Shown here: piece by piece, positions 38,528 to 51,837 of the stretch | Position numbering within the stretch: the first letter of the stretch is position 1 | Layout of the letters: every line of letters starts with the position of its first letter | NCBI GenBank assembly: GCA_000310025.1 | Contig: FN649755.1 | Location: 1,452,235 to 1,516,234 of the forward strand | Direction of reading: 5' to 3' | From: Ectocarpus siliculosus | Taxonomy: Eukaryota; Sar; Phaeophyceae; Ectocarpales; Ectocarpaceae | DNA: 64,000 nucleotides | Made by a program: the position numbers and the translations under genes | The notes under the pieces: generated by a model | What the model saw: only the letters and a program-made list of their open reading frames with translations | Database searches by the model: none | What the model was told of the DNA's origin: nothing

Positions 38528-39942
38528 ATGAACATCGACATCAAGGAGGTTCTCCGTCTGGAGGACGAGCTGAAGAAGACCTTGCGTGAAAGTCCAACGT
38601 CGTCTATTCGTCTAGACGCCAAAACCAACCTCCTCAAGTACGTTCAAGTCAATACCGTATTGGGGTTCGAGGAAGCGTACGACGATTTATTCTACGAGCT
38701 GAACGAGAACGGAGGTCTGGAGTGTCTTCGAAGCATCGCCCCGGCTCGTTCGAAAGACCGCTTCCAGCCCAAGATCTCAGAGTTGCAGGACTGTGATGAA
38801 GGCGATCGGCTTGAACAGCAGCTCCAGTTCTATCTTACGGACGCTGGACTCGCAAAACCGTTTTTGGACGTGCTCGTGGCGAGTGTGGCGCAAGACTCGA
38901 CAAAGTATGAGATTCAACGCGTGGGGGTCAAGTCACGCGAAAGCACCCGACGGAAGGCCATCAAGTTCTGTGGTGGTGATGTGCGAAAGATTACTGACAT
39001 GGCTAGGGTAACTGTGATCTGTGAAACACCGGAGGCCTTGGAACAGGCGTTCTCGGCTATCTTGGGATCGCTCCAGGTGAGCACGACATATGTAGCTTTG
39101 CAGACAGCTGGCACTTCTGGACGTGGTGTGGCACAATTTCATTTGCTTTTTGGTTTGATTTTGGTACTGGGAGTATCTCGGGAAAATCAGGAGAGCATCG
39201 TGCTGATGCGTTTTGCTTGACATATCGTAGCAGCGATCGGGGATAACGACCGTGATGCTTATGGTAGTTGGGTATCGATTGTTTTTGTACACAAATTATG
39301 CGTATCGTTTTTGCTAACCGTTGTGTGTGTACACCATTCTCTGCAAAATTCCAAACGCAATATGTGCACTTGCTGTAGTATCGTTGCATGTGCCATTCGC
39401 CTCTCGCCAAGTTGCCTTTGTGTTGTTCGTGTTTCAAAATGTTCACACATGCCTTCGCATGCTTCTCGGAGCTACTGCTGCTGTTCAATATTTTGTTAGC
39501 TTATGCCCGTTGTGCCACAGGTACAGGGAGTACGGTCTGACACTTCCATTATAAAACTATAATTTTTACCCGTTTGCAACGGCTCTTGTAGCCGCAAGAT
39601 GTCCTGCGCGTGGCGAATGGCTTCAACTCCGACTGGATGCCTAGCGGTTATCGGGACGTGAAGGTGAACGCCGTCGTGCACGAGCACCTATGCGAGATTC
39701 AGCTGCAGCTCCGCGAGTTCGTGGCATTGAAAAGCGATCAACACGCCGTGTACGAGTGGGCGCGGGACCTCAACGTGACGTCGGAAATGGAACCTGAAGA
39801 CATGTTCGAGAACATATCGCCTGAGGTTGTGGAGGAGATGATGCACCTGGCCACGGAGGACTGGCATGGAACTCGGCCTTGTCTAGAACACTTGCAGCTC
39901 GCTGCTGGACAATACGCCCAGGCTGAGAAGGGCCTCAAACAG
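38528..39942 (+). CDS. RelA/SpoT-like module (first two exons)
   Basis: Exon 38528-39076 (183 codons) starts with amphipathic helices ([16 protein letters not shown]) and carries the putative nucleotide-binding KSRESTRRK loop and the DMAR strand. Exon 39592-39942 (117 codons) carries [39 protein letters not shown] and a helical linker ending in [14 protein letters not shown]. Known family members make or break alarmone-type nucleotides or modify other substrates; whether this eukaryotic version is catalytic cannot be told. It is unusual to find it N-terminal to an expanding TPR array. Confidence 0.65.

Positions 39943-51837: not shown

Follow-up and report, generated by a model that had tools for sequence, protein, structure and literature searches.

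What kind of protein is encoded by a gene that sets RelA/SpoT-like motifs in front of a long array of TPRs, and could it be an immune receptor? The question is raised by a gene on the + strand at 38528-51837 of the window, the 64,000-nucleotide stretch of Ectocarpus siliculosus contig FN649755.1 analysed here, which a sequence-only reading had taken for a candidate receptor of a new type. Rebuilt from the sequence, the gene has 19 exons that join into 998 codons and a stop with zero internal stops, and all 18 introns have GT...AG borders. Fourteen exons are exactly 126 bp long and in phase 0, each encoding one 42-residue TPR; these exons, the enzyme-like motifs and the unbroken 998-residue reading all lie where the sequence-only reading had placed them. 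In Pfam, a TPR_12 match spans residues 342-998 of the protein (2.8e-182). The parts of the gene, of which the first two exons are called the head, are as follows.

38528..39076, + strand: head exon E1, 183 codons, with a helical region at the N-terminus and the first half of a SYNTH-like domain (splice sites, translation)
39592..39942, + strand: head exon E2, 117 codons, the predicted active-site exon, with GYRD loop, E-x-Q strand and H..Y.W.R (splice sites, family profile)
40120..40242, + strand: linker exon E3, TPR-like, 123 bp, 41 codons (splice model)
41108..51310, + strand: array of 14 TPR exons of 126 bp, starting at 41108, 41598, 42246, 44089, 44614, 45727, 46222, 46621, 47204, 47767, 48801, 49215, 49835 and 51185 (splice model and Pfam)
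51518..51639, + strand: terminal TPR exon E18, shorter (splice model)
51750..51837, + strand: last exon E19, charged tail and stop codon (splice model)
43945..43998, + strand: decayed intronic TPR exon (weak profile match, domain E-value 0.027)
46480..46539, + strand: decayed intronic TPR exon (weak profile match, 0.18)
48059..48109, + strand: decayed intronic TPR exon (profile match, 0.0034)

An exon similar to E3 was matched at several paralogues of the window gene, and a counterpart of E18 is present at five other head loci (L034, L036, L043, L048 and L053). The ATG at 38528 is directly preceded by an AG acceptor and the same arrangement is found again at 12 of the 16 head loci examined, so that an upstream exon is possible and the start codon of the window gene is unsure; the true start may lie in such an exon. 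A stretch approximately 200-340 bp upstream of some paralogues is partly conserved and has no clear reading frame. The predicted N-terminus of the protein is hydrophilic by eye. No Rfam match falls within the window.

To find further heads, a portion of the head was searched against the whole genome to which the window belongs (189 Mb, 492 contigs), which gave 31 exon matches at 17 loci including the window gene. Both head exons are present at 15 of these, and two loci are damaged: C24 has an internal stop in E1, ATC where the start codon would be and no E2 that could be found, and C15 retains E2 only in part. E2 is bounded by in-phase AG and GT sites in all 15 two-exon loci, and E1 has an in-phase GT at most 3 nt from the expected place in 14 of them, the exception being C20. 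At C458 the first ~35 residues of E1 are out of frame, and on sequence this head may be broken at its 5' end. The paralogue heads are 40-66% identical to that of the window gene. C16 has the most divergent of them, and its E2, used as a query in turn, recovered the same 15 E2 loci and none further. Every one of the 17 head loci, window gene included, has TPR exons downstream on the same strand, where C10 was judged from 1.5 kb plus the genome-wide TPR list, and where exon calls outside the window are mechanical, with several arrays covered in part and within one genome. The recurrence of this pairing across loci is the main argument that head and TPR exons form one gene, and it upholds the fusion first proposed from the window gene by itself.

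The relation of the head to RelA/SpoT-type synthetases is supported, with the exported or toxic type as its nearest kin. In the HMM check suggested with the sequence-only reading, residues 1-300 do match PF04607 (RelA_SpoT) at E = 0.0026, with 18.4 bits against a curated cut-off of 27, so that Pfam alone would not call the head of the window gene. A genome-wide PF04607 search listed two long RSH loci only and none of the 17 heads; at E <= 1 the model matches eight of the 15 heads, with a best value of 1.1e-4. At the same threshold 13 of 15 heads are hit by NF041399, the XopAD/skwp model (best 1e-7), and 12 of 15 by PRK09169 (best 4.1e-6). The PHROG head-morphogenesis family 7625 matches three of 15 (best 1.7e-5). 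Of the 19 PDB matches of the head profile, Tas1 (6ox6) is the sole convincing one, at 1.8e-5 and covering 73 positions in the first half; the second-best stands at 0.12. The algal profile alone found zero relatives in IMG/VR or GTDB genomes. In plasmid records the head consensus matched a Photobacterium protein (8e-7) and, from Pasteurella, a minor capsid protein (4e-3); its three matches in phage records are weak (0.1-0.2), and a single head-morphogenesis protein accounts for two of these. With two Photobacterium proteins added, the profile reached 48 bacterial loci in Vibrionaceae, Shewanella and relatives, and one phage-like contig. These bacterial relatives mostly have 250-280 residues, with a hydrophobic start in most of those displayed; the set is biased to Vibrionaceae and Shewanella by the search patterns and therefore says nothing firm about the donor of the algal head. 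In the reverse direction a bacterial relative as query had zero matches in the algal genome, which indicates that single-sequence similarity is too weak from bacterium to alga.

Profile comparison (hhalign) joins the 15-head profile to 29 bacterial proteins and one phage-like protein at E = 1.4e-27 (probability 99.8, 168 columns), compared with E = 0.27 for eight long RSH proteins. One of the three bacterial relatives scanned, Shewanella L056, itself passes the PF04607 cut-off (28.7 against 27 bits), and in six of the bacterial relatives' genomes six of the eight short PF04607 matches pass it. The bacterial exported-type set has an only moderate tie to long RSH (E = 2.2e-4, probability 45). 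In a tree of 58 cores a branch supported at 100/99 parts 13 long RSH from the algal heads and the exported type together, and the position of the algal heads inside the exported type is poorly supported. A chloroplast RSH origin of the head was rejected on the E = 0.27 to long RSH and on this split. The phage-like contig (L103, 1952-4993) encodes a 1014-residue protein whose second half contains a synthetase-type domain, with 32% identity to the algal consensus; its grouping with the algal heads (96/86) is distrusted because of a branch length of 2.69. A defence-system label was likewise set aside: PADLOC gave no match for the window gene, and two weak single-member matches were seen (0.011, 0.032). 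That the predicted head is a homologue of RelA/SpoT-type synthetases is thus supported at the profile level, and on sequence relationships it belongs with the exported or toxic synthetases (Tas1, XopAD, RelV), not with the long RSH. The kinship proposed by the sequence-only reading stands, then, by the profile match and by active-site residues present in all 15 heads, and membership of the long RSH type falls away.

This placement agrees with what is described for exported alarmone synthetases. In the sections of Ahmad et al. 2025 (PMC12691689) that bear on it, cluster B (Vibrio, Shewanella) includes VpEAS, which makes (p)ppGpp, RelV-like proteins belong to the group, such enzymes are toxic if retained in the cytoplasm, and XopAD proteins with Rel-like domains as well as MuF phage proteins are named as relatives; the XopAD, capsid/head-morphogenesis and PHROG matches of the algal head agree with the relatives named there. 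VpEAS/RelV, SaEAS, Tas1/Apk1 and the XopAD C-termini are accordingly the closest sequence relatives of the head and have the same D-x-x-R and E-x-Q spacing. Unlike these secreted or injected bacterial enzymes, the algal gene is eukaryotic and no export domain was seen in it. The long RSH (RelA, SpoT, chloroplast RSH) are distant kin via PF04607. An HD domain is absent among the Pfam families listed for residues 1-300 and 342-998 of the window protein, and no stand-alone alarmone hydrolase was found in the genome, HD_4 occurring only at the two long RSH loci, in a search that a split or diverged gene could escape.

Whether the head is still an enzyme can be judged in part from its residues. Invariant in all 15 heads are K135, R142, K143, D157 and R160 on the E1 side, and G202-Y203-R204-D205, K207, H215, E218, Q220, H234, Y237, W239 and R241 on the E2 side, so that the predicted active-site set (basic K/R patch, catalytic D, R, Y and E-x-Q) is complete in every head, the most divergent included. 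The listed active-site residues of SaEAS are D121, R124, K154, N169, E182 and Q184 (PMC12691689), and the spacing of D157-x-x-R160 and E218-x-Q220 equals that of D121/R124 and E182/Q184 as given there. Omega is 0.17-0.41 in E2 and 0.33-0.63 in E1 (11 overlapping gene pairs from 10 genes). A catalytically dead head, serving as a nucleotide-binding switch or docking module while the TPR array does the work, would be in keeping with the distance of the family from characterised enzymes (PF04607 in eight of 15 heads at E <= 1, best 1.1e-4) and with paralogues merely 40-66% identical to the window gene; the invariance of the predicted ATP-handling and catalytic positions in 15 of 15 heads and the low omega of the exon carrying GYRD and E-x-Q speak against it, and we regard it as quite unlikely.

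The TPR tail connects this family to a receptor class already known. Exon shuffling is on record for the NB-ARC-TPR and LRR-ROCO genes of brown algae (PMC11378527, in the lines that cite Teng et al. 2023 and Zambounis et al. 2012). A genome list of the TPR exon, in which 150 of 600 candidates were scored so that counts are lower bounds, resolves into 34 clusters. Within 15 kb, at least 14 have a RelA-like head and at least 13 an NB-ARC match; none has both head types nearby, and seven have neither. The 15-kb neighbourhoods of the 17 heads make up 0.27% of the genome, yet hold 14 of the 34 clusters formed by the 150 scored exons. The 14 RelA-like clusters have no NB-ARC match nearer than 15 kb. 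The C9a, C9b and C16 heads have no cluster among the 150 scored exons, but TPR exons are visible there in local searches. The occurrence of one TPR exon type beside both RelA-like and NB-ARC heads indicates that the two heads carry the same type of shuffled tail. The seven clusters near neither head are C16:825060-826571, C43:57964-60344, C5:226978-228072, C12:258736-259405, C10:3224580-3224912, C10:2586911-2587107 and C15:4148729; they may carry further head types.

A mechanical exon survey of 16 of the 17 head loci and two NB-ARC loci, in which lengths of 111-135 bp were allowed, ties favoured 126 and a few calls may be false, found 162 of 187 TPR exons to be exactly 126 bp long. In the NB-ARC-linked stretches L104 and L105 this holds for 10 of 11 called exons, and for four of those 10 the nearest neighbour is a RelA-like exon, at 82-87% nucleotide identity. 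Mean exon identity is 62% between the RelA-like and NB-ARC classes, compared with 55.5% between RelA-like genes. The nearest exon lies within the same gene for 39 of 162 exons, where 1000 label shuffles give a mean of 9.3 and a maximum of 22. Neighbours within genes and neighbours across classes are signs of local duplication and of exchange respectively, and the shuffling that had been suspected from the window array is borne out by 126-bp exons common to both kinds of locus and up to 87% identical. The head family thus resembles brown-algal NB-ARC-TPR genes in its shuffled one-repeat TPR exons, its multigene character and its 126-bp phase-0 exons of 42 residues, and differs from them in that a synthetase-type head replaces NB-ARC and that no STAND NTPase was found. 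Neither NB-ARC nor NACHT is among the families listed for residues 1-300 or among the 25 of 26 listed for residues 342-998, and the 41 residues of E3, which lie outside those Pfam scans, are too short for either.

Variation within the repeats is unevenly distributed. Ten hypervariable TPR positions were picked by entropy in one gene set; in the second set, over 18 independent close pairs, their omega is 1.18 (95% bootstrap 0.70-2.06), against 0.26 at other positions. We take the ligand-facing positions of a TPR to be the canonical 2, 5, 9, 12 and 13, after Magliery and Regan, and map them onto the exon. Under this assumed mapping the five positions have an omega of 0.84 (0.50-1.54) against 0.38 (26 independent pairs) and rank 1, 3, 4, 7 and 20 of 42 in variability, position 33 being the one ranked 20th; of the 2002 ways to choose five positions from that helix, only five reach this variability. 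Conservation is strong at the structural positions of the TPR. The closest gene pair is C29/C33, where omega is 0.36 for five TPR exons and 0.63 and 0.39 for the heads. Variability concentrates on the ligand-facing helix and the predicted active-site exon is conserved; as the omega intervals include 1, positive and relaxed selection are not separated.

Such a pattern might also arise if repeats expanded by unequal crossing-over with no receptor role, variation being near-neutral and the family kept up by duplication. The excess of nearest exons within their own gene (39 of 162 against a shuffled mean of 9.3), the decayed intronic exons, the two damaged loci of 17 and a further one broken at its 5' end, the omega intervals that include 1 and the repeats of the closest pair, which evolve no faster than their heads, all fit this account. 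It fares worse with the strong conservation of structural TPR positions and with variability that sits on the ligand-facing positions under the assumed mapping (five of 2002 sets as variable), and we consider it improbable.

Our preferred reading, to which we give a probability of about 0.5 on sequence and analogy, is that the family encodes NLR-like intracellular receptors whose output would be alarmone synthesis or tRNA pyrophosphorylation. The predicted protein of the family is cytosolic-looking, with an N-terminal SYNTH domain of the exported or toxic type, C-terminal exon-shuffled TPRs and no NB-ARC or NACHT switch found between them. In this model the TPR superhelix would hold the synthetase head inactive until the variable TPR surface binds a non-self or damage-derived protein and the head is released. 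The released head would transfer pyrophosphate from ATP to a nucleotide, giving (p)ppGpp or (p)ppApp, or to tRNA ends, and growth would be slowed or the infected cell killed; gain, loss and exchange of one-repeat exons would shift repeat number and specificity. As the reaction product, (p)ppGpp, (p)ppApp and pyrophosphorylated tRNA are all possible, and the sequence does not decide between them. Related toxSAS differ in substrate, according to the pertinent part of PMC11782079, and ppGpp produced in yeast inhibits growth, according to that of PMC5527313. Restraint by the TPRs and release by ligand are inferred by analogy with the C-terminal domain of CapRel, a bacterial protein that pyrophosphorylates tRNA and whose small C-terminal pseudo-zinc-finger domain is at once antitoxin and sensor in the account drawn on here (PMC9712102). 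The algal protein is like CapRel in its N-terminal toxic synthetase-type domain and, as proposed here, in a restraining and sensing C-terminal part such as is shown for CapRel. It is unlike CapRel as described there in that residues 342-998 form a long array of TPR type with no pseudo-zinc-finger.

Alarmone signalling operates in the plastids of photosynthetic eukaryotes. The same protein could accordingly serve outside immunity: as an alarmone synthetase in the cytosol or linked to an organelle, it would bind host partners through its TPRs and tune growth or plastid function in answer to nutrition or stress. A conserved predicted active site under purifying selection would be expected of such an enzyme, and the genome has two long RSH loci to go with plastid signalling. 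Seventeen loci with variable arrays and changing ligand-facing residues exceed what a regulator of this kind would need, its head is of the exported or toxic type in place of the long RSH type, and the predicted N-terminus has no obvious targeting sequence by eye; we judge a housekeeping role unlikely.

If the family does encode receptors, their ligands need not come from pathogens. Allorecognition or gamete and sexual compatibility would equally draw on a multigene family with variable repeats, as fungal NLRs do, some of which are incompatibility genes in the portion of Dyrka et al. 2014 (PMC4986451) concerned; we rate this alternative as improbable. In the same portion of that survey, RelA_SpoT is one of 12 effector classes at the N-terminus of fungal NLRs; NACHT lies between enzyme and repeats, and the repeats in its examples are WD40 or unannotated. 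A later survey of fungal NLRs again used PF04607 as one of the profiles to start from (PMC9815663), and a RelA nucleotidyltransferase domain is noted among bacterial conflict systems in the relevant lines of PMC7159879. The algal proteins are like the fungal NLRs covered by Dyrka et al. in that a repeat protein begins with a domain of RelA_SpoT type, and unlike them in that the head is fused directly to TPRs and no NTPase was found; the window gene is also unlike NLR/STAND receptors in general, as no central NB-ARC or NACHT was found in it. The suggestion of a receptor of a new type is therefore to be narrowed: it gains from the lack of any NB-ARC or NACHT found, and it loses from the fungal precedent, by which a RelA_SpoT domain as receptor output is not itself new (PMC4986451). 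What sets the algal genes apart is a toxin-type synthetase set straight onto a shuffled TPR tail with no NTPase, at 17 loci of which 15 have both head exons. No paper joining a RelA/SpoT-type domain with brown-algal TPR genes was among the matches listed in a search of open-access journal papers.

More tentatively, and as a possibility we would lean against at present, the family may constitute another large class of intracellular immune receptors alongside NB-ARC-TPR. Their output would be a toxin-type synthetase captured from bacteria and run directly by rapidly reshuffled TPRs with no NTPase switch. Were this so, a multicellular eukaryote would be using pyrophosphorylation of nucleotides or tRNA for immune signalling in its cytosol, and two receptor classes would draw on one common pool of TPR exons. 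The preferred receptor reading would itself mean that alarmone-type chemistry, known from the bacterial stringent response, CapRel, FaRel2 and Tas1, serves as a receptor output in a brown alga, and that an independently multicellular lineage made two receptor families by swapping heads on one shuffled repeat tail. Brown-algal immunity would then become testable through a defined biochemical readout.

The surroundings of the gene hold several further features. A perfect tandem duplication of 122 bp (37993-38236, 100% matches), which looks recent, ends ~290 bp upstream of E1, and a GTCT tetranucleotide repeat of ~44 copies (52749-52923) lies 0.9 kb downstream of the gene. EsV-1-7 cysteine-rich repeats are strongly expanded in brown algae. 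An open frame with such repeats (PF19114, 1.5e-39) lies on the - strand at 13477-14493, and the algal genome holds at least 150 matches to the motif, compared with none in 14 control prokaryotes. Together with NB-ARC-linked TPR genes built of 126-bp exons, this agrees with a brown-algal source. FNIP repeats on the - strand at 56869-57486 (PF05725, 1.6e-14) overlap a 66-bp tandem array at 56111-57087. A MULE transposase domain at 32351-32971 (PF10551, 5.6e-15) marks a Mutator-type element or its remnant, and a minisatellite of ~11 copies of a 116-bp unit occupies 20066-21389, a stretch of strong GC skew.
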